From positions 19,532,001 through 19,596,000 of the forward strand of contig CM076141.1 in NCBI GenBank assembly GCA_038025085.1: DNA of 64,000 bases. Direction: 5' to 3'. The DNA is from Tetragonia tetragonoides (lineage: Eukaryota; Streptophyta; Magnoliopsida; Caryophyllales; Aizoaceae). A program made the position numbers and the translations under genes. The notes under the pieces are model-generated. The model worked only from the letters and a program-made list of their open reading frames with translations. It was not told the DNA's origin and ran no database searches. Shown here one piece after another: positions 20,593 to 63,329 of the stretch; position 1 is the first letter of the stretch, and every line of letters begins with the position of its first letter.

Positions 20593-23237
20593 TCATACAA
20601 ATACATTATCATAAAAATCATCACTCGCATCAGCATCCGTGCGGAGCACCTCAAAGTGATACGATCGCCCCTCATTAGCATAACTCGAATCATACCCCCA
20701 CGAAAAACGAGGAGGCATGGTAGGCATCACAGGAGCAGGGACAGGGGGCTGGTAGTAAAGACCGCCATAAGGAGCATACCCCGCATACCCGGGATAAGAA
20801 GGATACATCGGCATAGGCATAGGAGTAGGCTCTACAAACGGAGCCATCCTACTCCCACCAGGACGCTCCGTCCGATAAACAGGCTCCCTCTCTCTCTTAG
20901 GATTCTCCCTCCGAGGGCTCCTCTCACAAGAAGGACTGCGCTCAGGCGAGCTCATAACCTCATCATCCGACAATACCACCTGTCGTGACCGACGAGGAAG
21001 GGGTCGACGATACTCAACCTGCAACCCACCAAACATATAAGATACATTTCTCAAAGCATACAACTTTGGAAATGCAAAATCAAACTTACCTTATCCAAGT
21101 CAGCCCTCGAGCAAGTTCCCTTCGAGAGAGCTCGAGATATCCAGGACTTCATGGCATGCATCATCATGAAAACCTTCCTGGTCTGCTCACAGTCAAGCTG
21201 CGGAAAGAAAAGTCAGTACAAGCCTGAAAACGGTGAAAATCACATACAACAGGTAAAATTACGAATGTCCTCATCTAGGTCCTCCGTCATGGGGACTTCT
21301 CCCCATCACTCCTTCCCGACATAGTCCCAACCTCGGACCCGCATATCCGGGATATCCGCATCAACGTCATCAACCCGAGGCTCCAACAAAGCAAAGAAGG
21401 TAAGCAACCAACAAACAAGAAAGGCATCGAATGACAAACATGAAGTTCTTACCTTCAAACCCAGAAATGAAGGCATGAGGCGATCACGACAGAACTTCTC
21501 GTAGTGCCCCGCAAGGTCCTCGGCAGGCTCCCTCAAATACTGCATAGCATCCGAGCCCACCATGGCCTCCGTAACCTGCTCGCGAGACAAGCACCTCACC
21601 GAAAACATGATCGAGGGAGGATCCAAAGGAATCCTCGATCCTAGTACATCAGGATAAACCTGACGGAAGATCCGCTCTCCCAAATACCACTCAAAAGGGA
21701 ACGGACCCGCAATCAGGATCCTCTGGAGGTCGATCGCCCTAGATGAAAGGACAGCATCCGAATCCAACCCATGATACTTCGCCCATGGGAAGTAGTCAAT
21801 CTACACAAACATGAAATATAAGATATTTCCACACAAAGAAATACAACCCATGCAATGAAAAGTAAAATTGCCTTACCTTGTGCCACTCTAGGCGCATGAG
21901 GCCCTCTCTATACTGCTGAAGAGTGTGGAAGGGCGCAGGACCCCTATGACTCCACGCCCTGCAAACCGGGAAGTCTAACTCCCAGCCCGTAGGCGCCATG
22001 TCCGGGAAATGCTCGAAAAACCAAGGCTACATCAAAACATGAAATTAAGCATCACGCACTTAAATCATGCAAATTGCCAAAACGGATACAAAAAGCAAAA
22101 CGTACCTGCAAGGCCTTCCAGAAACCGCACAAGCTCACGGGAGGAAGAGTCGACTGCTTGTATCCCTCATCATTCACGCGGCAAGCAAACCGCATGCACC
22201 TCAAGAGGTTGGCGTAACCAAGCAACCCCCAGTTGTACTCTCTCACCCTCTCCCAATCCAACAAGCTAGGGAGGTAAATAGCATAGATACGCTCCCCCTT
22301 GTCACCAAAGATAGTAGTGGCAAGGAGGTAGGCGATGAACATCCTCGCCTTCTGCTCCACCGAGGTGTTTCTTTTGTACCCCGCGTCAGTCAAAGCGGCA
22401 TAGAGCTCGCTATATGGACGATAATGGTGACCCCAGGTGTTCCCCCAAGGGCCAAACAACTCCACCATCTCTGTGTTACGTTTCCAAATGAAAACGTCAT
22501 AGACAATGGGCATACCCACGCAAGGTACCCCAGTCAGCATAGCAAACTCCGATGGAGTGATCATCCTCTCCCCATTAGGGAAATGGAACGTGTTGGTAGT
22601 ATCCCAAAAACGCTCCAAAGACAAGCGGACAATGCACCTCTTGACTTGCTCAACCGAGTCCGCCGCTTTCAAAAGGGGTCCAAACCCCGCACCTAAAACC
22701 GCACTTTGCACCTCTTTAGGCAAGACCTTAAAAAGTCTCACCGAAGAGCAATAATTACCATGGGGCTTCAAATTCCCATCGGGTTCCTATGATCAAAATT
22801 GCAACCCCCTTAGGTTCACATTTCACACAAATGTTCAATCCTAAGCATGTTTCTAAGTTCGTTCAAGCCGCGCAAGATCACATGCGCTACAAACTTGACA
22901 ATCGCATACATTTCCTACGCAAATTCTACTCAAGGCAAAGCATATAAACTAAAATTCAATGCATAAAACTATGAATTCAAAGTTTGAGGCTTACCACAAA
23001 CTTGGAAGCACGGGAGCTCAAGTGAGTCTCCGGTCGGAAAAGCAACTCCGATCGATCCCAAATGATGTCAGACATCCTATCCGGTCACGTGTATCTATCT
23101 TGAGGAAAAGCCACATTAGGTTTCCTCTTTGAAGGCTTCACATGGGAAGGAAAAGCCTTGGTGAAGATATCAATTTCTTCAATCTCCTCCTGGACCTCGG
23201 TCCTCCTACTCCTCTTCATCGCCAATTTAGGAGCCAT
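20593..23237 (-). pseudogene. Antisense PMD gene, seven exons, nearly intact (T1)
   Basis: ATG at 23237 in CCATGG (MAPKLAMKRS). Exons: 1 23237-22995, 2 22786-22106, 3 22026-21877, 4 21800-21453, 5 from about 21380, 6 21197-21090, 7 21018-20593. Introns 1-4 and 6 have clear GT-AG ends; the exon 5 donor is unclear. Exon 2 carries the PMD core LERFWDTTNTFHFPNGE and PSEFAMLTGVP. Exon 3 reads WFFEHFPDMAP, exon 4 FEWYLGERIFRQVYP, and exon 7 is Pro/Tyr/Met-rich. Exon boundaries match family N (for example GFWKALQ| versus GPWKILE|). Only two lesions are evident: TGA at 23085-23087 and TGA at 21306-21308. The protein would be nuclear if like MAIN/MAIL1; its role in the element is unknown. Confidence 0.85.
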
Positions 23238-23969: not shown

Positions 23970-24245
23970 CTGAAGCAGAGCAGCACAACGCTCTTTGACG
24001 TTGAGGCTATTAAAATTAGCGTCACGTTGGAACCCTTGAAGCAGAGCAACACAACGCTCTTTGATGATGAGGCTATTAAAATTAGCGTCACGTTGGCACC
24101 CTTGAAGCAGAGCAACACAACGCTCTTTGACGTTGAGGCTATTAAAATTAGCGTCACGTTAGCACTCGCAAAGAAGAGCAACACAACGCTCTTTGACGAC
24201 GAAGCTATTAAAATTAGCATCGCGTTGGCAAAAACAAAGAAGGTA
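23970..24245 (+). repeat. 66-bp minisatellite, four units (T1)
   Basis: Units begin CACAACGCTCTTTGA at 23984, 24050, 24116 and 24182, an exact 66-base period. As 66 is a multiple of three, a 22-residue repeat is open on both strands. It occupies the same place as the TCCCAAA array of family N. I do not claim it is translated. Confidence 0.92.
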
Positions 24246-24335
24246 ACCCTGACCACAGGCGGTCAGAAGTCTATCTTTCCTTTCTTTCTAACATAAAGCA
24301 TCATCAAAAAACATTGCAGGCATTTTAAGCAAATA

Positions 24336-24378
24336 CTTTGACCTTCGCTTTTACAAGCTCGGCCAAAGTGCGGGCTTT
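24336..24378 (+). promoter_or_regulatory. Pre-LTR hairpin and polypurine tract (T1)
   Basis: CTTTGACC (24336-24343) can pair with GGCCAAAG (24361-24368) with one mismatch. The polypurine tract AAAGTGCGGGCTTT abuts the 3' LTR. Relative to family N one base pair has changed from T-A to C-G on both arms. Confidence 0.7.
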
Positions 24379-25909
24379 TGTAGACACCCTAATCAGTACT
24401 CATCCCCTGGCACCGCAACGCCCAATGATGATGGTAATGGATTAACATGGACGTAAGTAGAAAAGGACATTGCTCGGAAATCTAGAACAAATTCCTTGAA
24501 ACCTCATTTTTTGGATAGCCCTTGTTATAAGGATTCCAAATCCTTTGACCTTGCCTCAATCAAGTTCCCGGATCAAGAGATATCGCGTCTCGAAGATTTG
24601 GGTCAAAACCGCTCAATCCCGACTCCCTGGATCAGCCTAAGGGCAATTTCGTAATTTACTGAGAACAAAAAGTCAAAAACCCTAGTCACACGTGCGCCAT
24701 CAGGTCCAGTGGCTATCGCTACCTGCCCAGCGGCCAGCGCGTGATAGCGGGGGCCTTCTGGCCAGCCGTTAGGCCCAGCGGCAGCCGCGGGCCCCAGCTG
24801 CCTTCCGTGTTGCCGCAGGGCCGGTTTTTTTTGCTAGGCTGAGTTGTGGCGCCGGGTTTCTTACCCTAAGCCCCAAAATCGGTCCCCCCACTCTATAAAT
24901 ACTCCTCTTCACCCTCTTTTGCAGGAGGTAAGTCAGTTCATAATTTTGAGAGCATTGAGAGCACATATTTCTCCAAATCAAAGAGAATTCAGACATTTAA
25001 AGATCCAAGCAAGCATTACACCTAGCCTAGCACCCAAGATCGAAGAGCAATTCCAATTCTACTAGTCCCGTTCAAATAGAACTTCCAGGTTAACCATCCT
25101 GAGGGCCTAAGCTCTTTATTAAATCTCTTGTTTACTATTTATCAATCATGTTTTATTTATCTTTTGATTATGGATGAATAAATTTGCATGCTTTGGGTTC
25201 TGTATATAATTATGCATGTTTAGTTTATAAAGTCAGCAACTTTTTTTATTAGTTATGCAAGTTTGCATCTTTTTGTAGTTTTTGCATGCATATAGTAGGC
25301 TCCTAGGTTTATTTTAGCATAAAGTTAATATCTTTGCATTGTTCTTCTTTTGAACTTACTAACAATTTTATTGATGTGCACATACAATGCTTGGCGCGTT
25401 TAGCAAAGTGCGGTAGGTTGGAGCGTTAATTTAATGTTTTATATCTTGTTTATGCTTGTTAATAGTATTCATGTAAATTGGATATAAATTGTGCGAAGTG
25501 ATAACATGGGTAATTTGGTTGTCTTTAACCCGCCTAGTTAATTTAGGATCTTGGACGACCGGACTTGTATGGAACCATATAGTATAAATAAATATTTTAC
25601 ATGAATAAGCTTAGTAGAGGCCGTTTATACGGGCGATTTAGATGAGATTCGTTTTGTTTATTTCGTACCTACACCCCGGAACTCAATATTTAGTCCCCAT
25701 GGACATGAGTCAATAGCCAATAGTAATTGGGTGCACTTTTGATGGTTTCCAATTGTTTCCTTAAAAATTGGTGGCGGCTTCTTATTTGCATATTGTTATT
25801 CCCCATAATTAAATTAAATTGCATATGACGTATTATTAAGAACCATTAATCCCAATCGAATAAAATCACGATTTTAATGGAGAGCCGGGAAGAGGCAAGG
25901 GTTCTTACA
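24379..25909 (+). repeat. T1 3' LTR
   Basis: TGTAGACACC...GTTCTTACA, 1531 bp, followed by the GTGCT duplication. TATAAATA at 24894-24901. The GC-rich block before the TATA box (24710-24850) differs in length and content from the 5' LTR although the flanks are nearly identical. Confidence 0.95.
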
Positions 25910-25914
25910 GTGCT
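25910..25914 (+). repeat. Target-site duplication of T1, right copy
   Basis: GTGCT, identical to 10319-10323. Confidence 0.95.
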
Positions 25915-27977: not shown

Positions 27978-29650
27978 TGTTTCGCCCGATTTTGAAGTGG
28001 TCGAACACTGGGAAGATGGTCAGATCTCGGTGCGAGGGTCGACGATGCTGTCCACCTTCTAGATCGACTGAATGAACCTGCATAATGTAAACAGAAGTAA
28101 ACTACCTCGGGGGTTCGACCCGAGAAGACCCCTTTGATGGTAAAGTTAGATACTGATTCGTACGTGAGGTACTTTGGTGTAAGAGCAGGTAGGGTCGGTT
28201 AGAGGGCGTGGGGATTTGATTAGGTGATTGAGTACGAGGGTCGCGCCTGAAGGACGCAGTGTCAGAGCAGAGTGTTAGAGGATTCTCTCTCTGCTTCCTC
28301 AATCAGCGTGAATGTTCCCGGAATTGAAAAACTTACCTTTACCTTGGTATCTGTGTAGGTATTTATAGGGCAAAAGTCGGCGAGCCCCGACGAATGAATG
28401 GCAGCCACGTAGCCTCGTCTGTATGTTCCTCTTGTAGTCGGTTTAGAGAGAGAGGTCACGTGAGCTTTGGTACGACCCTCTGAGGGTGCTCCACGTCAGG
28501 GATGGTGCAATTGATGTCGTCATGGTCGTCCTTTGAGCCTTGAAGGAGTGCACGCCAAGGCATTGGCCCGAATCTTTCAAAGAATATCCGTTCAGTACAT
28601 TTACTAGCGTCACCTCTATGTTCTTGAGGTCTTTTGGGTCGACTCTTATGTGGGTCGACCATTTAGTTCATGCTGGGTGCATAACGTCGATCTTCTGGTC
28701 GATGTCGATCTTCTCGGGTCTGACGGGGATGCTGAGTGACGGTCGAGGGGATCCTTGACTTGAGATCTCCTATTGCTGTAGGAAGTTGGTACTTCATGAG
28801 TCGAGGGGTGGCTTTGACTCAGCCTAGGGCCAGAGCCGTATCTTCGAGGAGGGAACAATGGTCGATTCCTCGACCCTCGATATTTTGGGTATATCATTTT
28901 GCCCTCACATCGTAGGGGGAGGAGGGTCACTTTTCGTCGAGTCCAGCTGGGATGTGGTTGGTCCGTTGACGAAACGTTTGCCCATTGGGCTTCTGATTCG
29001 GGTCCATCTCCTTCTTGGAAGGGCCCCTTGTCGGGATAAGCAGTCGGTGGACGTAGTTGGGCCGTCCACCTGTTAGTCATGTAGATCCCATGTTTTTCTA
29101 GGTCTCTTCGTCTATAAATAGTCAGAGCCTGCCTCACTTTCCTCTCTTCAATTCTGCTGTTTGATTTTCTAGAGAGAGAAAGCGGGTCTTCAAGATTTTT
29201 GTGAATCTTTCGTTGGTTCGTCATTGTCTGTTCCATCTACCGTTGTTGAGTCGTCTTCCACCTTCCATAAGGTACAACATTTCTCTTTTGGTATTTTTCT
29301 TGTCTGTGTTTACTTGTTTTTCATTCATGTCGATGTGTTCGCCCATTGATATATCGTCGGGGTCTGATGGCTCGCCTGAGGCATTCCGACCAGGAGCTCG
29401 GGGATCCTTTTTCCCCGAATGTTCCAGTCGGGGTTCATCTAGTCAGGGGCCTGGTCCATCATGTGAGGAGTCTTGCCCTCATTCTTCGAGTGATCCAATT
29501 CCCCCGATTCCGCCGGGGTTCTCCTTTTCCGAGTTTCCTCCAGGTTTTGAGTGGTTAAGCCCGGACGGATCGCTTCTTCCAGACTGGGTCACCCCATTCC
29601 AACTTCGGGAGGAGTCTTGGTATGTCAGGTTCCTGTCAGACCCGAAATAT
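27978..29650. other. 1.7-kb segment of unrecognised origin
   Basis: Unlike either family. It begins TGTTTCGCCCG and ends where minus-strand integrase of N3 starts. It has TATAAAT facing left (28361-28367, minus) and TATAAATA facing right (29113-29120, plus), CGAGGG/TCGACC-rich sequence, and a truncated ORF at its right end. It could be the 5' part of another LTR element, since TG follows a plausible junction, but I find no target duplication. Confidence 0.5.
29113..29120 (+). promoter_or_regulatory. TATA box in the 1.7-kb segment
   Basis: TATAAATA about 210 bases upstream of the ATG at 29327. A second, oppositely directed box (TATAAAT, minus) is at 28361-28367. Confidence 0.45.
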
Positions 29651-29663
29651 GCCGTTAGTTTAG
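29327..29663 (+). pseudogene. Truncated ORF, unknown Ser/Pro-rich protein
   Basis: Starts MSMCSPIDISSGSDG and continues with a Ser/Gly/Pro-rich low-complexity N-terminus, then SFSEFPPGFEWL, LLPDWVTPFQLREESWYVRF. I do not recognise the family; such N-termini occur in plant transposon-encoded proteins. The frame runs across the breakpoint near 29650 into reverse-complement integrase DNA, so the true C-terminus is missing. Confidence 0.35.
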
Positions 29664-30449
29664 GGACGGTAAGGGGATGCTTCGTGGTGCTGGATTTTGT
29701 AGTTCTTTAGGAGGGTGGCTATTTCGGCTTTGAAATGGGATCCATGGTCCCTAACAATTTCATACGGAACGCCGTATCGGCAGATGATGTTGTTCCTTAT
29801 GAATTTGGACACTTGTTTGGAGGCGAGAACGGCATAGGATTGGGCATCAACCCATTTGGTAAAATAGTCTATGGCTACTAGGATGTATTCATGTCCTCCC
29901 GAGCCTTTCGGGGTGATCTTACAATGATATCTATTCCCTATGCGTAAAATGGCCAAGGGGATGTGAAGTTGTGGAGCATTGAAGGTGGCATATGCTGCAG
30001 GTTGGCATATATCTGACACTTCTTGCATTTCTTGACATAGTCGTAACAATCCCATTCCATAGTGGTCCATTAGTATCCTAGTCGTAGGACCTTTCTAGAG
30101 AGCATTCGACCATTCATGTGTGGTCCGCACAGTCCATTGTGTACCTCGTCCATGATCTCTGCTGCTTCTTCGGAGTTCACGCATCTGAGGTTGACCCCGT
30201 TGTGGGAGTTCTTATATAGAACCCCCTTGTATTCTATGTATTGCGCCGCTAAGAGACGGATGGCCCATTGAGCTCTTATTGGTGCGTCTTGAGGGTATAT
30301 TCCTTTGATGATGTAGTTGAATACACCTTGGCACCAAGAATCTTCTTCGATCGGAGCCAGGGTCATAGCCGTGTCGAGGTTGTTGCAGAAAGTTAGCTCG
30401 CTTCTTCTTGTGGAGTGGCATCGTTGAGAGAGTTCAGCTACTCGAATTC
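29651..30449 (-). pseudogene. Integrase, N-terminal two-thirds (N3)
   Basis: Opens right after a splice-acceptor-like TTTTTACAG at 30450. Visible are APIEEDSWCQGVFNYI, GPHMNGRMLSRKVLRLGY, KITPKGSGGHEYILVAIDYF, and YEIVRDHGSHFKAE. A stop and a frameshift occur near 30070. The copy ends at ASPYRP, just before the catalytic Glu, where the 1.7-kb segment begins. Confidence 0.85.
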
Positions 30450-30689
30450 CTGTAAAAAGAGATAATTTGCATTCTTGTTTTGTGAATTTTACTTACATTG
30501 TTCAAATTGATTAGTTAATGATTTATGCAACTTTGAGTTCATCGGATTTGTCAAAACCTAAACAAAGGAAGAAATGAGCAAGAGGAATTTTTATTGATAT
30601 TAGATTTGAAAATAGCAAGAAAGGGATCTGAATTTCCCTAACATTGGCACTAGACTTAGAAAAAGAAAAGGGGACACCCCCCATTACTG
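30450..30689 (-). other. Intron-like spacer before integrase (N3)
   Basis: Same spacer as in N2 and N4-N6, with AATAAAAATTCCTC and a 3' splice-site-like TTTTTACAG. Upstream it merges into the degraded end of the linker frame. Confidence 0.45.
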
Positions 30690-32390
30690 ACTCATCCTTA
30701 GGACTTAAGCTAGACATTGACTCTAACTGAGACTCGGAATCAAATTCTTCCATCATTGGTCCTTCTCCATTGGTTATTGTGACCTTACGTCCAGTTGGGC
30801 CAGTCCAGCTTACTTCTCTGCGCCATCCGATCGTGACATTTTCAGTAGTATATATTAGGTCTGCAGGTTTGAAGTTGCGATCATTGAGAGCCATTACCTC
30901 TTCATTCATCTCAGGGGCTTCAGCCATTCTAGTTTCTTGGCCAAATTAGAGACCTAGTAGCTGGTTACCTAGCGCCTTAGTCCAATCTTGACTTGCTAGT
31001 TTTGAAGGGTGGTGTGCCTCCTCGTCTAATTGGTTGCAGTCTTGGAAAATTTCAAAACATGGGTGTGTGACCTTGGCTTCCTTTTCATAGTACGGCTCCG
31101 GGAAGCCATAGTATGGGCAATAGTCCCGTTTCTGTGATGAACTGACCATTTAGCGTGTGGCTGTAAGGGGGTATTACTTCTTTGGAAATGACTTGTTTCC
31201 CCTTAAATTGAATCCTTTGTTTCAGAGCTTGATCGTGGATTTCTTTGTCAGTAGGTGTGTAGCAAAGTCCAAAAGAGTTGTTTTTGGCTTCGAATTCGAA
31301 GGTGGTGGGTCCTTGTCCATTTCTTCCCAGACCCATACTGGGTATATACCCTTGCTTCTTGAGAACACCATTAACATGAGGGTTGGAGTGTGCTATGAAT
31401 GAGGCTTGATCTATTTTGAGCACGTTGACTTCGAGCTGCGGTTCATACTTCCGTATGGTGATCTTGAATATGTGAGAATTTGGAGGAGAGACGGCTCCGG
31501 AATCAATGACAGATTGGATGTCATACTTCAAACGGTAGCACTGTTCGGTGAGGTGACCAAAGCATCTATGATATCTGCAATAGAGGTAATGATCTTCCTC
31601 TTCTGGCAAAACTCCTTCCACGAATTGCAGATCTCCGCGGCGAAGTTGAGCTGTCATGACATCATGCATAGGTACTGCTAGTGGCGTGAAGTCCCGGGTT
31701 GGAATGCTCGATCATTCCTTGGATAACCAATGATGTGCAGGCCACATGGTCCCTTCATTAATGAAGGCTTGAATTTTGTCCCTCAGATTCCTGCAGTCAT
31801 TGGTGTGATGTCCGCAGGCTCGGCAATATTCGCAATAAACACTTGGGTTTCCGTTTTCATGGACGAGTTCATAGCTAGGTCCCACCGAATGCATGTAGCC
31901 ATATGCCCCTTATTTGTTGAAAAATGCATTCTTGAGCCCAACGGGGTTGCCCTTGATTAAGAACGACCTTGTCACCTTCTAGTGCCTTAATTCTTTGCTC
32001 TAACCCAGCAACCGTTTTCTGTAGCCTTTGGATCTCTGAGTGATAGATAACTAAATATTGGGTTAGGTGCTCGATAACGTCTTGTGCTTCAACAAGGCCA
32101 TGGATTGGCTTGTCTGTGCTTCTGTACTCAACGAGGCTAGGGGTTTCATCAAGATCAAGGCCCACTTGGATTTTGGCCTCTCGGAGTGATCGGTCCAATT
32201 GTTCCCCTAAGTCAAGGGATTCATCTTAAGTAGCAAGTATCGATTCTCTTGAAGTTTCGTGGACTGGATATGCAGTTGTCACAAAATGAGTTTTGATCTT
32301 CTTAACATTCTGGCCCATTTCTGACCTTGGCATGAGGAGAGATTCTTTCTGTGTATCTTCAGCTGAGGAACGCTTGCTGGACCCTGGCAT
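30690..32390 (-). pseudogene. gag: Gag and linker region (N3)
   Basis: Starts at ATG 32390 (MPGSSKRSSAED). A coiled-coil-like segment follows (VIEHLTQYLVIYHSEIQRLQ). There are two zinc-knuckle-like motifs, CEYCRACGHHTNDC and CRYHRCFGHLTEQC. Next is a G-patch-like LKKQGYIPSMGLGRNGQG, then LNGQF and YYGFPEPYYEKEAKV, homologous to the T1 linker between protease and RT. The protease itself is missing between the second knuckle and the G-patch-like part. A gag domain like that of N2 is not evident. Stops and frameshifts are numerous (near 31900, 31700, 31090, 30930). Confidence 0.7.
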
Positions 32391-33428
32391 GATCTGAATG
32401 AGTAGATGACCATTTAGAATCAAAAAGACCACGAGACTCTCACCTAAGAAAAATGTTGACCGACACATAGAAGAAAACACATTGTCCTAAAAAAAAAAAG
32501 ATCCTTAAGCCTAAATGCCCAAATATTTCCCTAATATCAAAGGAAAATAAAGTCGATGAATGAAAAATAAGAAAAATAGAAAAGACGGACTACCCTATTT
32601 TTTTATTCTTCTAGACTCAAAGAAAATGGAAAATGGGATAAAAATAAAAATAAAAAAGAAATTTCGGTCCTCTTTTTTTATTTTATTTTTGCAATTTTTT
32701 TTTCGGCGGCATTTTTCTTTTTGCCGTTTTTATTGTTTTTTTTTTTACCAAATCTGGATTACATAAATAAAAAAGATATAGAAAAAAGGGAGACGGAAAA
32801 TTGGAACGACTGACTCATTTTATTTTTTTGCTAAAAGGATCCTAAGAAATTGCTCACGACTTTTATAAAATATATCATTGGGAAAATGACGAGTGTTCAT
32901 CGAATTGAATTCTCGCACCATTTTTGGGAATTAGGAACTAGCTAAAAGTAAAAGAAAAGACGCCTAGAACGTAAGTACATGTTCGCACATAGTCACGATA
33001 TTCATGCATTCAGGCAAGCATTACAACAACATAGTTACAAGCAAACATGTGATCAGACAGGCAATACAACAACACATGCACAACAAGCAAGCGAATGCAC
33101 GAATGTGGGCTAGAGGCTTTTGGCTCCTGTGAGGTTAGCACGAAAAATTACAATTTCCGTTCGGTGGATGGTCGACACATCAATTGTAATTCTTTTTCAC
33201 CAATAAGAGTCGATGAGTCATGGGTGAGGAAGCGTCGGTTTGCACGATAGGACAACTGTATATTCCTTTAGATATACGGATTGTCTACGAGTTGCGACAC
33301 AAACTTCCTCGAGGGTCGATAAGGGTCAAAAGGTTGTGACAGAGCACATGCAAATGATGCAAAATATGGAACATGTTATTAAACAATTAAGCAAACTTGA
33401 CTTTCGAGTCTCACCCTCTTAAATAAAT
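32391..33428 (-). other. Leader of N3
   Basis: Untranslated leader like that of N2 and N4, with A/T-rich runs (32480-32820) and the inverted repeat AATTACAATT...AATTGTAATT at 33147-33191. No gene seen. Confidence 0.6.
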
Positions 33429-35330: not shown

Positions 35331-35530
35331 CTGACCCGGTTTTGTGACGTTAGGACTTTGGGACATTGAGACTTTGGGATATTGGGACATTGAGACTTTG
35401 GGACATTGGGATTTTGGGACATTGAGACTTTGGGACATTGGGATTTTGGGACACTGAGACTTTGGGACATTGCGATTGAGACTTTAGGACATCGAGACTT
35501 TGGGACATTGGGATTTTGGGACATTGATGA
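35331..35530 (-). repeat. TCCCAAA-type minisatellite (N4)
   Basis: On the + strand GACTTTGGGACATTGGGATTTTGGGACATTGA-like units, imperfect. Homologous to 5276-5455 and 59641-59822. Confidence 0.85.
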
Positions 35531-43995: not shown

Positions 43996-44012
43996 CCCCA
44001 GTGAAGTCGCCA
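43996..44012 (-). other. Primer binding site, tRNA-Arg type (N4)
   Basis: TGGCGACTTCACTGGGG on the minus strand, one base inside the LTR; best-preserved copy in the window. Confidence 0.8.
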
Positions 44013-46058: not shown

Positions 46059-46404
46059 TTGGCTACCAGCAACAGCTAGAGAAATCGAGTCTGAGTTCCC
46101 AAGTTTTGTCGAGTTAGGTTCTTAGCTAAATCTTTAGGTTGAGTGTGGAATAGGGGGTGTTCCCCTTTTTACTTTTCTTTCTAAGTCTAGTTTCTTTTTG
46201 ACGGGAATTAGAGACCCTCTTCTCTAAAGTCATGTGTGCTTATATTTTGTTGCAAATCAATAAAAATTCCTCTTGCTCATTTCTTCATTTGTTTAGCTAT
46301 TGACAAATCCGATGAACTCAAATTTGCATAAATCATTAACTAATCAATTTGAGCAATGTAAATAAACTTCGCAAAACAAGAATGCAAATTATCTCTTTTT
46401 ACAG
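46059..46404 (+). other. Intron-like spacer between gag and integrase (N5)
   Basis: Homologous to 9006-9349; contains AATCAATAAAAATTCCTC and ends TCTTTTTACAG at 46404. Confidence 0.5.
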
Positions 46405-49940: not shown

Positions 49941-52639
49941 TCAACCGGAGTCATCATCGCCATTGCTGTCAGCCTCATTTTCAACAGATGGTCACTGGCC
50001 ATAGTTCCCGGCCGAATAGTGGAAGGAGCCCTGAGTACTAAACGAGCTATAAATGGGCCTGTTGTTGTTAGGCCTCATATCCCGTCCATTATATGCTGGC
50101 GCATGCATAGGGGTACCTGCCGGAAACCCCTCTCTAAAGAAGCTCTCTGTGGCCTGGCCAGCAAAGTCCATAGCCATATCCTGATATGAAGGCCCAGTTT
50201 GAGGCACGACCCATCCATGGGCGTTCGCCCAACCTCCAGCCATAGGGTTCACAGTAGGCCTACTATCGAAAGAAGGCTGAAAACCCACCGGAGAAAACAT
50301 CTCAGGCACAGGAATGTGCGGCACAGAAGGTCCGGGCGCCTCATCAACATGAGGCCTGGTCACAACTACAGGAGGGAACGAGCAACAGATGGCCTGCTCG
50401 CCGAAGAAACACTCGCAGCGAAAGAATGTCGGGGTCCCACCAAAGAAGAGGACTACGACATCTGCAAACCAATCAAGACCAAAATGTTAAGTTAAGCACT
50501 TCACTTAGCTAAACAAAGAATAAAAGTCTACTTACATCAACAGTGTTGGACCGAGAACTCTTCCCTTTGCCCATCACCCGACTATAGCCTTTGTTCAACA
50601 GATGGAGCTGCCTGAAAACCTTGGAAATCTGCTCCTGGTTCAGCTACAAGAAGAGACAGAAGATATGGTCAACATTCAAAAGCAAACACGAAACACAAGA
50701 AGGGATAAAAAAAACTTACCCCCGTACAACCATCAAGCAAGGGTAAGCCCTCCACGGTCTCCCCATCAGCAGTATATAGAGGGAACTCCTCTACTATATG
50801 TCCCCCACTCTCACCAATGTACCTCACCTCATTGCTCGGCAAGGTCACGCTTGGGGGCTGACCCCGAGGAACTGTAGAATGGGACCTCCTAGGACCTTGA
50901 GGAGCCAAACGACCCGCCTACAAAACACAAAAGTCAGTATATCACGCATATAGCTGAGACGAGCACAAATAAAGGTCTTACCTCAGAAGTGAGGTCCGGC
51001 ATCAGACGACCCAAGCAATAGGCCAGGTACACAGCCGTACGATCCAAGCCAGCAATCTCCGACTCAATAAACTCTGTGGTCGTCATACCACGAGCCACGA
51101 CCCTCAAGTCCTCCACGCTCAGGCTGTGCAGGTAGAACATGGTCATCGGAGGGTCCTCCGAAACCAAATGACCACCCAAGGAAGGATAGACAAGCCGAGT
51201 CAAGCGGTCCCCCAAGTACCACACAAAGCCAAATGGCCCCTCAAAGACCACCCGAAAGGAAGATACCCTAAAATACTCGACGATAATATGGGGAGGAACC
51301 CCAGGAATACCGTCGAAGGCAGTCCACGACACCTGCAGATTACCTGATCAAAGTTCATTCACACCAAATGGACCAAAAAAAATACATAAGCAAATCAAAG
51401 GCAACATACCTCAGACGCAGCATGACTCTCAAAGGTAGCACGGAAATGCTCCAAAGAGGTAAATGGGTGGTTATCTTTACGAATTCACCGTGAACCTAGT
51501 GGCGACATCCTCAAACCAGGACGGTGAGGACCAAAAGCGGGAAAATACTCAAAGAACCACAGCTGCCATACAAGCTAAAAATGATAAGCTGCAATTCTCC
51601 GAAAAAGCATGCATGTGCAAAGGAAAAGGGAAATATATGTTCCTACCTCTAGTAAATTCCACAGGCCTGAGATAGACACCCTCTCACTCGTCGGCCTAGG
51701 CCTACAAGCCTGACGGCACCATCTCACCAAGGTAGCATATGCAGGGGCACCAAAGTTGTACTCATGGACCATGGACAAGTCGTCCAAACATATCAAGAAG
51801 ACGACCTGACACACGCTCTTCTTCTGAGCGAAAATGGTCGACCCCAACAAGCAAGCTAACGAATGACGGGCCATCTGCTCCTCAATAAGCCGTTGCTCCG
51901 CCAAAGCCGCCCATAACCTCGGCAAGGAAACCCGGTCATCTCTAAAATGGACGAACAAAGGCCCATAAAGCTCAAGCAACCTATCACTCTGCCGATGGAA
52001 ATACACATCATACTGTATACGACGTCCTTTAAAAGATAAGCCCGTCCGCACAGCAAACTGATAGGGGGTAGGAAACATCTCCCCCACAGGCGTATGGAAG
52101 GTGTTCGTAGTATCCCAGAACCTCTCCAATAACCCCCGAGCGATGATCCTAGTGTCCTCAAAGTGACAAGCTGACAAAAAGTGCCCAAAACCTGAACCCT
52201 GCACTAGGTCCCTAGCTCCAACAGAAAAAGTCTCCAACATCATAGCCCAAAGGGAAGTAGACCCATGAGCCTGCAGCAAAACACCAATACCCTAGCCAAC
52301 AAACAAAATTTTCTCAACACCCCACATACTACCAATACAGCCAAAATCATTCCACACAAATTATATACAGCTGACCACCAATCCAGTAGAAGTCCCAATT
52401 TGTTCGTGTGCCGAAGCACTAACAGTTTAAATTTTCAGTTCAAAAAAATTTATAACTGAACAGAACCAAAAAAAAGAGAGAGTCAGAAAACATACCAACT
52501 GAAGGACAGACAGATGACTCTACCTGTCCAGTAGCAAAATACTACGGTCCCAAACCCTAGTCGGGCGCCAGTCCATCCGCTTGAACGAATCCTGGTACAA
52601 ACGTGCCATGTCTGCATGTCAAGCAAGGAGCGTACTAGT
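49941..52639 (-). pseudogene. Antisense PMD gene, exon 1 truncated (N5)
   Basis: Exons on the minus strand: 1 (partial) 52639-52496, 2 52270-51647, 3 51562-51410, 4 51332-50982, 5 50917-50720, 6 50643-50536, 7 50461-49941 (TGA). All six introns keep GT and AG, including the intron 3 acceptor TGCAG that is mutated in N1 and N7. Exon 2: LLERFWDTTNTFHTPVGEMF. Exon 4: VYLAYCLGRLMPDLTSE. Exon 7: DMAMDFAGQATESFF and SFHYSAGNYGQ. The head of exon 1 with the ATG is removed at the N5/N6 junction. Small indels occur in exons 2 and 7. Confidence 0.87.
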
Positions 52640-52845
52640 AAAAGGAATCGATTGGGCTGAGGTCAGGGCCGGTAGCGGCGCTGGGGTGAAGATGAGGGGC
52701 GCCAACGGCGCTGGTCACAACCGCTAGCGGCGCTGGCGGCTCTGACTTTGAGCCTTTTTCGTGGATTTCTGACTTTTTACTGGATGTCCAAAGCCGTATC
52801 TCCTTCTCAGACTTTAGCTCTCTCAAATTTCCCCAAGCTTCTACC

Positions 52846-54427: not shown

Positions 54428-55787
54428 TTAGACATAGTACTTCTTCAGTTGGTCCATGTTGGTGAGCTGACGGAACACGATGCCATCAATGTCCATGAGT
54501 CGGACTGCGCCTTCTGATAAGATGTCTTTAATGATGAACGGACCTGACCAATTGGGTCGAAATTTGCCTCTGGGGTCTGTAACTGGGCCACGCAATTCTT
54601 TCCAAACTGATTCTCCTTCCTTCAGATTTCGAGGTCGAACCTTTTTGTTGAATGCTCTTGCCATGCGTTGCTGGTACATGTGGGAATGGTCTAGGGCCCG
54701 TAGGCGTCTTTCATCTGTGAACAGCAGTTCTTCGTAGCGGGCTTGCAACCATTGGTTTTCAGAAATTTCACCCTCTAGGGCTATGCGCATGGAGGGTAGT
54801 TGGACTTCTATGGGTAGCACAGCTTCCATTCCGTAGACCATGGAATAAGGTGTCGTTCCTATGGAGGATCTTATGGATCTCCTATATTCCCAAAGGGCAA
54901 ATGGAAGTTTTATGGGCCAATCTTTGTAGTTGTCTATCATCTTTTGAATGATAGTCTTGATGTTTTTGTTGGTGGCTTCCACTGCGCCGTTGGTTTGGGG
55001 ACGGAAAGGGGATGATTTGTGGTACTGGATTTTGTGGTTCTTTAGGAGGGTGGCTGTTTTGTCTTTCAAATGGGATCCATGGTCACTAATACTTTCATGC
55101 GGAACGCCGTATCGGCAGATGATGTTATTCCTTATGAATTTGGACACTTGTTTGGAGGTGAGGACGTCATAGGATTGGGCTTCAACCAATTTGGTAAAAT
55201 AGTTTATCGCGACTAGGATGTATTCATGTCCTCCCGAGCCTTTTGGGGTGATTTTACCGATGATATCTATTTCCCATGCGGAAAATGGCCAAGAGGATGT
55301 GAAGTTGTGGAGCATTGAAGGTGGCATATGTTGCAGGTTGGCATATATATCTGACTCTTCTTGCATTTCTTGACATAGTCGTAACAATTTCTTTCCATAG
55401 TGGTCCAGTAGTATCCTAGTAGTAGGACCTTTCTAGAGAGCATTCGACCATTCATGTGTGGTCCGCACACTCCATTGTGTACCTCGTCCATGATCTCTGC
55501 TGCTTCTTCGGAGTTCACGCATCTGAGGTAGACCCCGTTGTGGAACTTCTTATATAGAACCCCCTTGTATTCTATGTATTACGCCGCAAAGTGACGGATG
55601 GGCCATTGAGCTCTTATTGGCGCGTCTTGAGGGTATATTCATTTGGTGACGTAGTTGAATACATCTTGGTACCAAGGATCTTCTTCGATCAAACCCAGGA
55701 TTAGGCCTGTATCGAGATTATTGCAGAAAGTTGGCTTGCTTCTTCTTGTGGAGTGGCATTCTTGAGAGAGTTCAGCTACTCGAATTC
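54428..55787 (-). pseudogene. Integrase (N6)
   Basis: Opens at CTTTTTACAG (55788). Reads CGPHMNGRML, GYYWTTMERNCYDYVKKC; a two-base insertion near 55350 spoils the C-X2-C and shifts the frame. From there a single open frame of ~310 residues runs to the stop: ITPKGSGGHEYILVAINYF (first catalytic Asp now Asn), ISDHGSHLKD, NGAVEATNKN, RGKFRPNWSGPFIIKDIL, ending KKYYV-stop at 54428. Confidence 0.9.
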
Positions 55788-56132
55788 CTGTAAAAAGAGA
55801 TAAATTGCATTCTTGTTTTGCGAAGTTTACTTACATTGCTCAAATTGATTAGTTAATGATTTATGGAACTTTGATTTCATTGGATTTATCAATAGCCAAA
55901 CAAAGAAAGAAATGAGCCAGAGGACTTTTTATTTATTTGCAACAAAAGATAAGCACACGTGACTTTAGAGAAGAGGGTCTCTAATTCCCGTCAAAAAGAA
56001 ACTAGACTTAGAAAGAAAGCAAAAGGGGGAACATTCCCTGTTCAAGACTCAACTTAAATATTTAGCTAAGATCCTAAGTCGACAAAACTTGGGGACTCAG
56101 ACTCGATTCCTCTAGCTCTTGCTTGTAGCCAA
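55788..56132 (-). other. Intron-like spacer between gag and integrase (N6)
   Basis: Homologous to 9006-9349, minus strand. Confidence 0.5.
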
Positions 56133-56770
56133 GTAGTTCCAGGCTCCATAGGTATCATCTTCTTCTTTCTTGTATACCATCTTGCGGGCGGATGTAGTCA
56201 TCCGTGCGGTGGCCAAACACCCGGTGATATTGACAGTAGATGTTACTGTCAATCAAGATACCCACATCATAGAGCCGGTTGTAGGAGTCAATTGCTTGGT
56301 ACAGGAGGCGTTCCTCATAAGCAGGTTGCAGATTCTTGATGAATTGGCGGATTTGATTACTTTGCGCAGGTTTCTCAACCAGTTTGGCCACCTTTAGCCT
56401 CCAACGTTGAAGGAAGGCAAGGAACCCCTCATCTTTTCCTTGCTTGGTGATATCTAATATTAGAAGCGTCATGGAGAGGACAACATTTTCCTTGTAGAGT
56501 GCAAGGAAGATTATAGTGAACTCTGACCAAGTATATGGTAGTTTTCCAAATTCAAGGTGTAGAAACAACGACGAGTCGAGGCATCAAGAGTCTGTGGACA
56601 AGTGTATGTAGATGCTTTCGTCAATTCCTCTCAAAACCATGACGGTAGTGAAGGCCTTGAGGTGATTTTGTGGATCATCAGTTTTAGTGAATGTCGGAAC
56701 CTCGGGCATTGAGGATTCTTTCCAAATTATCCATGATCTCATCAAACTTCTCTTAAGTGGTTTTGGTCAT
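56133..56770 (-). pseudogene. gag: Gag (N6), coil segment deleted
   Basis: ATG at 56770 followed by an early TAA (MTKTT-stop). About 190 bases encoding the charged coil and linker are deleted near 56715. The gag domain (ITKQGKDEGFLAFLQRWRLK) and knuckle CQYHRVFGHRTDDY (last Cys lost) remain. The usual TAG has become TAC, so the frame reads a few codons further. Confidence 0.75.
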
Positions 56771-57820
56771 TGTGATGCTTGGTGGTGTGATTGGTGAGGT
56801 GAGCTTTGTGGTGGGGATGGATCATGGGGTGATTGTCTTTTGGAATGTGGTGGTGACGCTTTTTTGTGGTGGAGGTAGTCGGGAACTTGGTGGTGTAGAC
56901 GGTTGCAGACGAACTAGGCTTGCCGAAGGCCGAGCCCAACTTTTCTCAAGGTTTCCTTTCTTCTTTGGACCCCCTATCCTGAATAGGAAGCATGGAGCAC
57001 TTAGTAACAAGAACAGACCATGAGACTCTCACCTAAAAAAAAATGAAGACCCACACATAGAAAACACATTGTCCTTAAAAAAAAAAGATCCTTAAGCCTA
57101 AATGCCCAAATATTTCCCCTAATATCAAAGGAAAATAAAGTCAATGAACGAAAATAAGAAAAATAGAAAAAGGCGGACTATCCAATTTTTTTATTTTTCT
57201 AGACTTAAAGAAAATGGAAAAGGGATAAAAATAAAAAAATACAAAAGAAATTTCAGTCCTCATTTTTATTATTATTTCGCAATTTATTTTTCGGCGGCAT
57301 TTTTCTTTATGCCGTTTTTTTTTTTTTTAACCGAATCTGGATTACATAAAAAAAAAGAATAAAGAAATAGAAAAAGAGAAAGGGAAAATTGGAGAGAATG
57401 ACTCCTTTTTTTTTTGCTCACGACTTTTATAAAATAAATCATTAGGAAAATGACGAGTGTTCACCGAATTAAATTCTCGAACCATATTTGGGCATTAGGA
57501 ACTAGCTAAAAATAAAAGAAAAGACTCCTAGCACGTAAGTACATGTTGGCACATAGTCACGATATTCATACATTCAGGCAAGCATTACAACAACATAGTT
57601 ACAAGCAAACATGTGATCTGACAGGCAATACAACGACACACGCAAAACAAGCAAGCGAATGCACGAATGTGGGCTAGAGGCTTTTGGCTCCTCTGAGGTT
57701 ACCATGACAAATTACAATTTCCGTTCGGCGGATGGTAGACACATCAATTGTAATTCTTTTTCACCAACAAGAGTCGATGAGTCATGGGTGAGGAAGCGTC
57801 GGTTTGCACGATAGGACAAA
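56771..57820 (-). other. Leader of N6
   Basis: Pro/Thr-rich conserved open stretch (56822-57000), A/T runs (57050-57420), leader inverted repeat (57710-57756). The primer site and LTR end are deleted at about 57820 between ATAGGACA and ACCGAAGGGACAA. Confidence 0.6.
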
Positions 57821-58899
57821 CCGAAGGGACAACCCAATAGCGCGATAAGGGAACTGATCATGTTTTTAGAAAGTCTCCCGCTCATATAGAACATATGAGT
57901 ACCCAAGAATAATAGGTTCGGGGGCGAAGATACGAGGTGGGAAGGTACAAGGTGGGAAGGTGTTAGGCACCCAACTCGCCCGTTTTATGACGGTCTCTAC
58001 TAACTCAAGTTTACTTAATAATTTAAAGACATAACTCCCATGCAAAATCGGATTAACAACCTAGACTTAGACTATTAATTAGTTCATCACGAGCATCACA
58101 ACATTTATTTTTAACCCTTGTTTAGACATGCATTCGATTGACAAGTTGAGCATTACAACGACTAGACGTGCTTGGAAGGACAATTAGTAAGCAATAAAGG
58201 ACGTTATTTAGCATGATATCTACATTATAATGACTAGAAAATAAACAATTAGGCAATTAATTTAATTTGAGCCCTCAGGAGTTGGTACCTGAACTGTAGG
58301 CTATGTTTGACAAGAATAGTAAAAGACAAGAACTCAAGTTTGGAAGAAAGAGGGGGAAGCTCAATGTTAATACTCCTGAGAATAGAGGTTGTCAACTGTA
58401 GACTGTGTGATTTAAACTGAGAGAGGAGGGTCGTAATTATAGGCGCAGGAAGTAGGGCTGGACAGCTGAAGAGGAGCCGAAAATCGGATTTGGGCTGAAA
58501 AAATAGCCGGGCCTGGAAGCTTATGCAGCGCCACTAGCGGCTCAGGTCAACGCCGCTACTGGCTCAGCTCACAGCCGCTAGCGAGCCGCTGACGGCTGTG
58601 GTGTGCCAGCTGGATGTCGTCATAATGAAAAGAGCGTTTTACCCTTGGGCGGTAAAATACGGTTTTACCCCCGATTCACAACTTGGCAATGGGGAGTCGG
58701 AAAAAGTCATGAGAGGTGACGTTGGAAAGCGCTTGAACGGGACTTTTGAATGGGACTTTAATAAAGGAGTGATCGAGGAAAAAAAACCTGAGACCTTATC
58801 TTACCTATTAAAGCAAAAATAGCGTTCAAATTTATAAATTACTCCTTTCATCATCGGGCTTTTGCGGAAAAATCTGAAGGTGCTTTTTTGGCATTTACA
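57821..58899 (-). repeat. LTR shared by N6 and N7, end deleted
   Basis: Starts (minus) TGTAAATGCC at 58899. The TATA box is altered (TATAATTA, 58434-58441). GC island with GCCGCTAGCGAGCCGCTGACGG at 58525-58605. The 3' end with the primer site of N6 is missing. Confidence 0.8.
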
Positions 58900-58944
58900 G
58901 AAGCCCCCACTTTGATCGAGCTTGAGAAAAAGCAAAGATCAAAG
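58900..58944 (-). promoter_or_regulatory. Pre-LTR hairpin and polypurine tract (N7)
   Basis: CTTTGATC (58910-58917) pairs with GATCAAAG (58937-58944); polypurine tract AAAGTGGGGGCTTC on the minus strand abuts the LTR. Confidence 0.75.
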
Positions 58945-59199
58945 TATTCCGAAGGTGACATGCAGAATGCTGATGTGCATATAGTGTGTGATAGTGTATA
59001 GTATGTATGAAGATGAAGACAAACCTTGGTTGGGACATGCTCCTCGCGTGCTAAGACTTCATCTCTGTGAACACAAGAGAAAATAAAGGTTATGATTAGC
59101 AGGATAGAACACCGCTCGTAGATGGTCTAAACGTCTGCTGCAGACCTGTATTCAGAGTGAATGAAAAAAGTTAGTAATACTTTGAGAATGATCAACGTA

Positions 59200-59640: not shown

Positions 59641-59822
59641 CCCATTTATTTGACGTTGGGACTTTCATTGAGACTTTGGGACATTGGGACAACAAGACTT
59701 TGGGACATTGGAATTTCGGGACAATGAGACTTTGGGATTTTGGGACATTGAGACTTTGGGACATTGGGATTTTGGGATATTGGGACATCGAGACTTTGGG
59801 ACATTGGGATTTTGGGACATTG
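59641..59822 (-). repeat. TCCCAAA-type minisatellite (N7)
   Basis: GAGACTTTGGGACATTGGGA-like units on the + strand; homologous to the N1 and N4 arrays. Confidence 0.85.
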
Positions 59823-60474
59823 ATGAGGCCAACAGACTTACCGGGCTTAAAATAAATTTGACACTCCTGGCGATAAATATCGTCTGGGCGTATATATGGG
59901 CTTAAGCATTTGGGACCTGCAAAAATAATTGGGTTAGTTTTACCTGAAAATAATTGGTACCGTAAGATGGGCCAACTGTTGAATATGAATTTGTGGGTCA
60001 AAGAGACTCGCTCCCGCGCGCCTGGCACTGATTTTGCCGCGAACGAACTGAAGTAACGGATTCTGGGCGGGAAAAAGTCGTGGGACAGCAGCTGGGAGCT
60101 CGCGTGTGCAGGCCTGCCAGTGCTGCTAGCGGCGCTGGGCTCTTGATGAGGGATGCTAGCGTCTCTCACGAGCGCCCCTAGCGGCGCTCAACTTGAGCAG
60201 CCTAAAGGCTTTTTGTTAATTTATTTCTCGCGTTTTGCCTCATTCTTCTTCCTCTCGCCAAGCCATTGTCAAGCAATACTCACCATTGTTGAGTGCTTTA
60301 ACTTCCTTGAGATAGGTTGATTTTTGACCAAATTCTTCGATTTTTGTCTTGAACTTGCTTATTTTACCGCCTTGTTGCTGAATTTTGGGTACCATTGTTT
60401 AATGGGTACTTGTTTCTTGCGAATCTGAAACTTGAAATTTTCACTTGTAGAGAGAGAAAGCTTCATTCTTCTTC

Positions 60475-63329
60475 CGTTGCTCCCAAGGTCAAAGGAAAAC
60501 ATCCCATGGGTGTGGAGGAGGAGAATCGGGACCTTTTTCGTACTAGGCTTCCTTCTACTAGTACGCCCCTTGCTCGACATGCAGACGGGGCACGTTTGTA
60601 CCAGGATACGTTCATGTGGATGGAGTGGCGCCCGGCTGGGGTTTGGGACCGTATTGTTCTGCTATTGAACAGGCAGAGTCATCTGTCTAACCTTCAGTTG
60701 GTATGTTTTCTGACTCTCTTTTTTTGGTATAACCCAACTCGTTTAATAATCGTGTCATATTCGTGTTGACTCGCTTCACTTTTTAAAACATCATAATATG
60801 TATATATATATATATTGAACTAAAAATTTGACCTGTTAGTGCTTCGGTACACGAACAAATTGGGACTTGTACTGGATTGGTGGTCAGCTGTATATAATTT
60901 GTGTGGAATTATTTTGGCTGTATTAGTAGTATGTAGGGTGTTGAGAAAATTCTGTTTGTTGTCTATGGTATTGGTGTTTTGCTGCAGGCTCATGGGTATA
61001 CTTCCCATTGGGCTATGATGTTGGAGACTTTTTCTGTGGGAGCTAGGGAGCTAGTGCAGGGTTCAGGTTTTGGGCATTTTTTGTCTGTTATCCCGGCTTG
61101 TCACTCTATGGACACTAGGATCATCGCTCGGGGGTTATTGGAGAGGTTCTGGGATACCACGAACACCTTCCATACGCCCGTGGGGGAGATGTTTCCTACC
61201 CCCTATCAGTTTGCTGTGCTGACGGGCTTATCTTTTAGAGGGCGTCGTATACAGAATAAAATGGATTACCATCAGCAGAGTGATAGGTTGCTTGACCTTT
61301 ATGGGCCTGTGTCCGCCCATTTTAGAGATGACCGGGTTTCCTTGCCGAGGTTATGGGCGGCCTTAGCAGAACAGGGGCTTATTGAGGAGCAGAGGGACCG
61401 TATTTTCTTAGCTTGCTTGTTGGGGTCGACTATTTTCGCTCAGAAGAAGAGCGTGTGTCAGGTCGGCTTCTGGACATGTTTGGACGACTTGTCCACGGTC
61501 CATGAGTACAACATTCGTGCTCCTACATATGCTACCTTGGTGAGATGGTGCCGCCAGGCTTGTAGGCCTAGGCCAACGAGTGAGAGGGTGTCTATCTCGG
61601 GCCCGTGGAAAATACTGGAGGTAGGCACATATATTTCCCTTTTCCTTTGCATATGCATGCTTTTCAGGAGAATTGTAGCTTATCATTTTTTGCTTGTATG
61701 GCAGCTTTGGTTCTTTGAGTATTTTCCCACTCTTGGTCCTCACCAACCTGGTTTGAGTATGTACGCACTAGGTTCACGGTGGATTGGTAGAGATAACCAT
61801 CCTTTTACCTCTTTGGAGTATTTTCAGGCTACCTTTGAGAGTCATGCTGCGTCTGAGGTATGTTGCCTTTGATTTGCTTATGTATTTTTTTTTTGATCCA
61901 TTTGGTGTAAATGAACTTTGGTCTGGTAATCTGCAAGTGTCGTGGACTGCCTTCGACGGTATTCTCGGGGTTTCGCCCAATATTACCGTCAAGTCTTTTA
62001 GGGTATCTTCCTTGCGGGTGGTCTTTGAAGGGCCATTTGGCTTTGTGTGGTCCTTGGGGAACCGCTTGACTCGGCTGGTCTATCCTGCCTTGGGTGGTCA
62101 TTTCGTTTCGGAGGACCCTCCGATGACCATGTTCTACCTGCGCAGCCTACGCGTGGAAGACTTGAGGGTCGTGGCTCGTGGTATGGCGCCCACGGAGTTT
62201 ATCTAGCCGGAGATTGGTGGCTTGGATCGTACGGCTGTGTACCTGGCCTATTTCTTGGGCCGTCTGATGTCGGACCTCACTTCTGAGGTAAGACGTTTAT
62301 TTGTGCCCTTCTCAACTATTTGCGTGATATACTGACTTTTGTGTTTTGTAGGCGGATCGTTTGGCTCCTCAGGGTCCCAGAATTCCCCATTCTAGAGTTC
62401 TTCGGGGCCAGCCCCCAAGCGTTACCTTGTCGAGCAATGAGGTGAGGTACACTGGTGAGAGTTGGGGACGTATAGTAGAGGAGTTCCCTCTACGTACTGC
62501 TGATGGGGAGACCGTGGAGGGCTTACCCTTGCCTGATCGTTGTACGGGAGTAAGTTTTTTTTATCCCTTCTTGTGTTTCGTGTTTGCTTTTTAATGTTGA
62601 CCATATCTTCTGTCTCTCCTTGTAGTTGAACCGCGAGCAGACTTCCCAGGTTTTCAGGCTCATCCATATGTTGAAGAGAGGCTATAGTCGGGTGATGGGC
62701 AAAGGGAAGAGTTCTCGGTCCAAGGCGGTTGATGTAAGTAGACTTTTATTCTTTGCTTAGCTAAGTGAAGTACTTAACTTAATATTTCGGTCTTGATTGG
62801 TTTGTAGACGTCGCAGTCTTCTTCTTCGGTGGGACCCCGACGTTCTTCCGCTGCGAGGGTCTCTTCGGCGAGCAGGCCATCTATTGTTCGTTCCCCTCCT
62901 GTAGTTGTGACCAGGCCTCCTGTTAATGAGGCGCCCGGACCTTCTGTGCCGCACATTCCTGTGCCTGAGATGTTTTCTCCGGTGCGTTTTCAGCCTTCTT
63001 TCGATAGTAGGCCTACTGTGACCGCTATGGCTGGAGGTTGGGCGAACGCCCCTGGATAGGACGTGCCTCAAACTGGGCCTTCATATCAGGATATGGCTAT
63101 GGACTTTGCTTGCCAGGCCACAGAGAGCTTCTTTAGAGCGGGGTTTTCGGCAGGTTCCCCTATGCATGCGTCAGCATATGATGGACGGGATATGAGGCCT
63201 AACAACAGCAGACCCATTTATACCTCGTTTAGTACTCAGGACTCCTTCCACTATTCGGCTGGGAACTATGGCCAGGGACCATCTGTTGAAGATGAGGCTG
63301 ACAGCAATGGTGATGATGACTCCGGTTGA
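60475..63329 (+). pseudogene. Antisense PMD gene, all seven exons present (N7)
   Basis: Exons: 1 60475-60700, 2 60988-61620, 3 61705-61857, 4 61937-62287, 5 62352-62549, 6 62626-62733, 7 62808-63329. Donors are all GT. Acceptors are AG except intron 3 (CTGCAA). The ATG found in N4 reads GTT here, and the leader-intron donor GT is AT. Exon 2: LLERFWDTTNTFHTPVGEMF and PYQFAVLTGLSFRGRRI. Exon 3: LWFFEYFPTLGPHQPG. Exon 4: VVFEGPFGFVWSLGNRLTRL, with a TAG at 62204. Exon 7: SQSSSSVGPRRSSAARVSS, a TAG for W near 63057, ending DSNGDDDSG. Intron 1 carries an extra ~90 bases with an AT microsatellite. Only about four lesions in the whole gene. Confidence 0.88.

Follow-up and report, generated by a model that had tools for sequence, protein, structure and literature searches.

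In a 64,000-nucleotide stretch of Tetragonia tetragonoides DNA (hereafter the window; contig CM076141.1 of assembly GCA_038025085.1, positions 19,532,001 to 19,596,000 of the forward strand), a plant mobile domain (PMD) gene sits between the integrase (INT) and the 3' long terminal repeat (LTR) of Ty3/gypsy retrotransposons, on the strand opposite gag-pol, both in one element, T1, and in a second family, N. We favour, with moderate confidence, the reading that a seven-exon PMD gene travels in this antisense position in elements of the Tat type. What can be read from the DNA itself is the place and strand of the gene, its PMD match, phase-0 introns that correspond between the two families and a frame that was open in the founder of N.

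The gene was recognised with the profile PF10536, whose gathering score is 34.9 bits. Single antisense open reading frames (ORFs) exceeded this score in T1 (22052-22771, minus strand, with exon 2; E=3.1e-14, 53.4 bits, profile positions 24-181), in N7 (60979-61872, plus strand; E=6e-16, 59 bits, positions 15-211) and in N5 (51575-52279, minus strand; E=6e-12, 45.8 bits). Joining the exons raised the match to 82.6 bits in T1 (positions 24-284) and to 74.5 bits in N7 (positions 15-253). An earlier sequence-only reading of this DNA had proposed an antisense PMD gene in both families, which the three ORFs and the stronger, above-threshold matches of the spliced proteins bear out; its positions for the T1 gene (20593-23237) and for the intron borders 22994/22787 and 61621-61704 were right to the base. 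By profile match and exon/splice model, the T1 gene occupies 20593-23237 (minus strand) and the N7 gene 60470-63329 (plus strand). Three further N copies were located: N1 (2359-4988, minus strand; tblastn and alignment), N4 (36144-38218, plus strand), which has a start ATG and a deletion spanning exons 5 and 6 and part of exon 7, and N5 (49944-52648, minus strand; profile match, tblastn and alignment). Among the N copies the 5' part of exon 1 can be recognised in N7 and N4 only, being unrecognisable in N1 and N5. The context of the start is alike in T1 and N4. Besides, the T1 ORF with exon 2 matches DUF1985 below the cut-off (26.6 versus 35.1 bits), a hint that PMD and DUF1985 may be related.

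The model comprises seven exons and six introns, all in phase 0 except T1 intron 5, whose donor is unclear. In T1 (minus strand) exons 1-4 lie at 23237-22995, 22786-22106, 22026-21877 and 21800-21453, and exons 5-7 at 21380 (or 21383) to about 21261, 21197-21090 and 21018-20593. Those of N7 (plus strand) lie at about 60470-60700, 60988-61620, 61705-61857 and 61937-62287, followed by 62352-62549, 62626-62733 and 62808-63329. Exon lengths in T1 and N7 are 243/~230, 681/633, 150/153, 348/351, ~120/198, 108/108 and 426/522 nucleotides, exon 6 having 36 codons in both. When compared exon by exon, exons 1, 2, 3, 4 and 6 outscored every one of 1000 residue shuffles (local z of 9.4, 49.2, 7.5, 18.6 and 15.3), and exons 5 and 7 were weakly alike, their local scores being reached by 85 and 52 of the 1000 shuffles and their global scores by 9 and 21. 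The best-scoring N7 partner of each T1 exon was the exon of the same number. This test strengthened the exon plan; the likeness of exon 6 lies outside the PF10536 match ranges. A four-row alignment puts introns 2, 3 and 4, and intron 5 on its acceptor side, in identical columns; introns 1 and 6 correspond up to the placement of gaps. The proposal of seven exons with corresponding introns in two families is thus upheld in order, phase and boundaries. The model introns contain 36-54% T and the exons 28-29%.

Splice sites were scored with a plant consensus after they had been chosen by eye, so the ranks that follow are partly selected. In T1 the donors rank 6, 4, 3, 2 and 1 among 179 GTs for introns 1-4 and 6, and the six N7 donors rank 4, 5, 1, 2, 10 and 3 among 221 GTs, whereas the acceptors of introns 1-6 rank 7, 9, 3, 17, 4 and 1 among 170 AGs in T1 and 3, 12, none (no AG), 1, 22 and 4 among 168 AGs in N7. 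Most donors therefore stand near the top of the GTs in the region, the acceptors less clearly so, with a weak one at T1 intron 4. Across the four N copies, excluding the pieces missing from N4, 40 of 43 splice dinucleotides are canonical (donor GT in 21 of 22, acceptor AG in 19 of 21); the AG of intron 3 is gone in N7 and N1 and the GT of intron 1 in N4. Two homologous proteins, P0001 from quinoa and P0002, were also aligned to the gene regions without regard to splice signals, with many spurious jumps for P0001. P0001 placed intron 2 exactly as modelled in N7 and N5 and 3 nucleotides off, at the same length, in T1; it placed T1 intron 1 at 3-7 nucleotides from the model and intron 3 at 3-15 nucleotides in N7 and N5 and 12-29 nucleotides in T1. 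With P0002, intron 2 was exact in N7 only. Intron 2 is thus placed independently, T1 intron 1 nearly and intron 3 roughly so, and the other introns rest on the model. The plan might still be in part an artefact of reading introns into the frame breaks of an old, decayed PMD gene that had none, as every copy is broken and the sites were picked by eye. However, the same breaks occur in two families, the N dinucleotides are nearly all canonical, the exon frame has no shared stops, donors rank at the top and intron 2 is recovered without splice signals, and we regard this explanation as most improbable.

T1 is a complete Ty3/gypsy insertion. LTR alignment and ends place its 5' LTR (TG...CA) at 10324-11801 and its 3' LTR at 24379-25909 (both plus strand), and the 5-bp target site duplication (TSD) GTGCT stands on either side (10319-10323 and 25910-25914). 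Of 1477 sites compared between the two LTRs, 100 differ, or 39 of 998 once a variable part is left out. A primer binding site (PBS) of 15 bases (11803-11817, plus strand) is followed by gag, protease region, reverse transcriptase (RT), RNase H, additional RNase H and INT (12131-18112, plus strand), the profile matches running from RT_RNaseH to RVT_3 (the additional RNase H) and rve. The starts of the gag-pol ORFs share one frame, which stops interrupt. With LTRs, TSD, PBS, RT, RNase H and INT around it, the PMD gene of T1 is encoded within a Ty3/gypsy element. T1 itself is nested in the integrase of an N element, which can be read to 10323 and resumes at about 25913. A 66-bp tandem array (23971-24230, no strand) lies between the PMD start and the 3' LTR, and an antisense promoter could be situated in this region.

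RT, RNase H, additional RNase H and INT are given in this order for Ogre and Retand, two subclades of Tat (PMC6317226), and by these domains, the additional RNase H included, T1 belongs to the Tat clade. N lacks the domains concerned. At most about 330 bp separate the 5' LTR of T1 from its gag ORF, leaving no room for an extra upstream ORF, and a long extra ORF upstream of gag is a hallmark of Ogre. Nor does T1 have two polyprotein ORFs with an intron between them, its ORF starts sharing a frame, and it was ruled out as a canonical Ogre on this single frame and the lack of space. PMD is nevertheless present in 57% of Ogre elements (Neumann 2019, PMC6317226), which resemble T1 in clade, in PMD and in the additional RNase H between RNase H and INT, but differ by their gag-pol intron from the single frame and short leader of T1. 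Retand is characterised by a Transposase_28 ORF that runs antisense in the interval from pol to the 3' LTR; the antisense gene here is PMD, and Transposase_28 had no match in the exon-joined proteins of T1 and N7.

Family N consists of several rearranged pieces that are mutually 85-94% identical in a self-comparison of the window. Its integrase gave ten matches of at least 100 amino acids to that of T1 at 44-61% identity, the longest covering 306 amino acids at 61%, and its gag eight matches at 24-50%, the two longest at 36% and 42%. When the RT and RNase H of T1 were used as queries, only T1 itself was found in the window at E<=1e-3, other matches having E>=1.4 even under relaxed settings. 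Five N gag-integrase regions, of N1, N3, N4, N5 and N6, are present without RT and RNase H (9366-10323, 29650-33255, 40508-44012, 45034-47686 and 54482-57830), and N therefore does not qualify as autonomous within the window. For two of the gene-bearing units the gag-integrase lies inside the window, at 40508-44012 (minus strand) for N4 and 45034-47686 (plus strand) for N5; for N1 and N7 the pol is mostly beyond it. Some copies still show recognisable D, D and E motifs of integrase. Additional protease-region sequence survives in the N3 piece (29650-33255) and may point to a stepwise deletion of RT and RNase H. The N units at 1-10323 and 26240-64000 form a rearranged cluster with inverted pieces and LTRs apparently common to neighbouring units, a layout as after unequal recombination. 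Tandem arrays also stand upstream of three N PMD genes (59666-59822, 35342-35527 and 5284-5447), their sequence being unlike that of the T1 array.

T1 and N share the location of the gene, between INT and the 3' LTR, the PBS and an alike side of the polypurine tract (PPT). The 15 bases of the T1 PBS recur unchanged in N at 43998-44012 (minus strand) and with one change at 7274-7288 (plus strand). The start of an N 3' LTR (TGTAAATGCC at 58900) and its PPT-side stretch were located at 58860-58985 (minus strand) by reading and comparison with T1, and the sequence just before the 3' LTR there is closely alike to T1 24330-24385 (plus strand). A single capture before the families diverged is likely, more so than that a host gene with these introns was captured twice. 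We rejected the view that elements had inserted around a host gene, as the gene occupies the same place in T1 and in four N copies. Two captures would mean that the ancestors of T1 and N each took a host PMD as genomic DNA, the introns agreeing because host genes have them in common; MULE elements have indeed captured host PMD genes twice (PMC5418596), but the same strand and INT-3' LTR place in both families, the similar start context and the similarity of exon 6 beyond the PF10536 match ranges make this unlikely. Alternatively, the gene may have passed between the families after their divergence, through recombination or template switching, since related elements nest in one cluster here and share rearranged LTRs. 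Such a late transfer should leave the PMD gene more alike than the integrase, whereas the exons are 26-39% identical and the best integrase match 61% (306 amino acids), and unless PMD evolves faster this route is quite improbable.

The N copies also give a view of their founder. No stop is common to at least two copies in 730 codons of the PMD frame, while such stops number 24, 47, 15, 34 and 25 in the remaining five frames; counts for exon 1 are approximate, as this exon is partly misaligned in N1 and N5. The founder of N therefore had an open seven-exon PMD gene. Its introns also came through retrotransposition, as had been expected, since all four N copies retain the introns of whatever parts they keep. 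The long retention claimed earlier can be kept in part: five exons are alike although the integrases differ by about 40%, and the founder frame was open.

Several results weigh against the favoured reading. All five PMD copies in the window are broken. In T1, exons 1 and 5 each contain an in-frame stop, and intron 5 has no usable frame-keeping donor, the modelled one ranking 67 among 179 GTs. N7, N1, N5 and N4 have 2, 4, 5 and 3 in-frame stops, each in a single copy, along with private frameshifts, and N7 has lost its start ATG. An N integrase stretch likewise shows no shared stops in 251 codons, with 16 and 13 in the two other frames; the founder integrase was therefore open as well, so that its retention does not set PMD apart. 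The dN/dS within N is 0.63-0.87, compared with 0.54-0.83 and 0.79-1.27 in two wrong frames, which make an imperfect control. Introns diverge by 0.07-0.105 and exons by a dS of 0.11-0.17 and a dN of 0.07-0.12, so that introns are no faster than exons. The 18 sites that divide the copies two against two are spread evenly over codon positions (6/6/6), and singletons number 102, 83 and 92. There is no purifying signal within N, and the copies decayed neutrally after insertion; selection on the present N copies, as had been suggested for the protein, was rejected with dN/dS in the wrong-frame range and evenly spread sites. A dN/dS near 1 across copies had been named beforehand as counter-evidence, and N comes close to it, which we read as decay after insertion. 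T1 and N7 are identical at 0.459, 0.535 and 0.346 of codon positions 1, 2 and 3 (pS 0.724, pN 0.501). Twenty controls, in which the codons of N7 were shuffled inside each exon and aligned anew, gave means of 0.412, 0.481 and 0.349 (pS 0.680, pN 0.555); all 20 were beaten, narrowly, by position 2, by amino-acid identity and by pN, and by nothing else. This control weakened the argument for selection, and pS and pN were rejected as proof of it, reflecting mostly alignment bias; because the test failed its control, the claim of exon likeness rests on the 1000 residue shuffles. AlphaFold gave the quinoa homologue, from a 7-row alignment, a pLDDT of 39.8.

In our reading the coding constraint acted earlier and gave way to neutral decay once the N copies spread, as the open founder frame and the exon likeness across families suggest. 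It could also be that the gene has no present role as a protein and that antisense transcription itself damps or tunes the element via double-stranded RNA. This has been proposed for antisense ORFs (PMC7264820), PMD genes give phased siRNAs in tea (PMC10673657), and the N copies are without coding constraint; yet an open founder frame of 730 codons and five exons alike between families require such constraint, and we consider this explanation unlikely.

Under the favoured reading of a travelling seven-exon gene, the common ancestor of T1 and N would already have borne the intron-containing PMD gene. RNA polymerase II would transcribe it from a promoter between the gene and the 3' LTR or within that LTR, and the transcript would be spliced and translated. 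The introns would persist, as the genomic RNA represents the complementary strand, in which they are not introns. In a sense gene, splicing would take the introns out of the RNA that gets copied; those of the PMD gene were probably kept because the RNA copied by the element is its complement. This shielding follows from logic and anatomy, with transcription and splicing presumed. We hold these steps together with considerable confidence. In a further and more tentative step, a nuclear PMD protein would alter the repression of the element by host PMD proteins (MAIN/MAIL1), most likely by competition; we think this counter-silencing role possible but somewhat doubtful. MAIN and MAIL1 are PMD proteins needed for transposon silencing in a complex with PP7L (PMC7156037, PMC5418596); they are encoded by host genes and have the PMD domain in common with the T1 and N gene. 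Counter-silencing has been guessed for element-borne PMDs (PMC8616336), and anti-silencing use of MULE-captured PMDs was a speculation of Ikeda 2017 (PMC5418596). The fullest version is a lasting, intron-rich and spliced accessory gene of cellular type, present in Tat elements from before T1 and N diverged and with its introns shielded by the antisense placement, whose PMD product competes with MAIN/MAIL1 and which even an RT-less family keeps, borrowing RT while supplying its own counter-silencing factor; it seems rather unlikely to hold as a whole. An RT-less family with an open PMD frame in its founder makes the counter-silencing idea testable.

The domain, its carrier and its antisense place are of known kinds, and the corresponding six-intron plan in two families, one of which lacks RT in the window, is the newer part. 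Outside plants, HBZ of HTLV-1 is a spliced antisense gene; like the PMD gene it is an accessory gene on the opposite strand of an LTR element, and its protein is nuclear, as proposed for PMD, but unrelated, and the host belongs to another kingdom. HBZ is named in PMC11963269. PMD is the most frequent extra domain among surveyed plant LTR consensuses (PMC9289625), and Ty3/gypsy-borne PMDs occur across angiosperms in the clades PMD-A1 and PMD-A2 (Ikeda 2017, PMC5418596). These gypsy genes resemble that of T1 in having PMD inside a Ty3/gypsy element. A gene predictor was run around the element PMDs in that study, so multi-exon models may exist in its supplements; its main text has no occurrence of 'intron' or 'antisense', whereas the T1 and N gene is antisense with six introns. 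Elements with antisense ORFs located downstream of pol and ahead of the 3' LTR, with tandem repeats and in some cases non-autonomous, have been described (PMC11963269, PMC7264820); they resemble T1 and N in place, orientation and a long repeat-bearing region between pol and 3' LTR, but mostly encode Transposase_28 (PMC7264820) instead of a PMD with six introns. Plant LTR elements are generally without introns, Ogre and EVADE excepted (a 2025 review, PMC12786077). Among the papers listed in the literature searched, with preprints and most subscription papers outside its scope, no description of introns in an element-borne antisense PMD gene was found. Extra ORFs were scored by Neumann 2019 as ORFs of at least 250 codons (PMC6317226); surveys of single long ORFs would fragment or miss such genes, and intron-bearing antisense genes of LTR elements may be under-counted. 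The direction of PMD exchange between host and element is fully open according to Ikeda 2017 (PMC5418596), and if the plan is general, intron positions could tell whether host MAIN/MAIL came from elements or the reverse.

Relatives of the protein were few. Protein searches returned the two PMD homologues used above, P0001 and P0002, a profile search gave the same two, and the N7 query gave none. Pattern scans for relatives confirmed 0 of 60 matches in viral contigs and 0 of 63 in genome contigs, and neither a solved-structure search nor an NCBIfam search with three exons gave a match. P0002 (JGI, 393 amino acids, from a contig of 1782 bases) runs in one frame through the regions of the intron 2 and 3 junctions and may be either an intronless relative or a spliced transcript.

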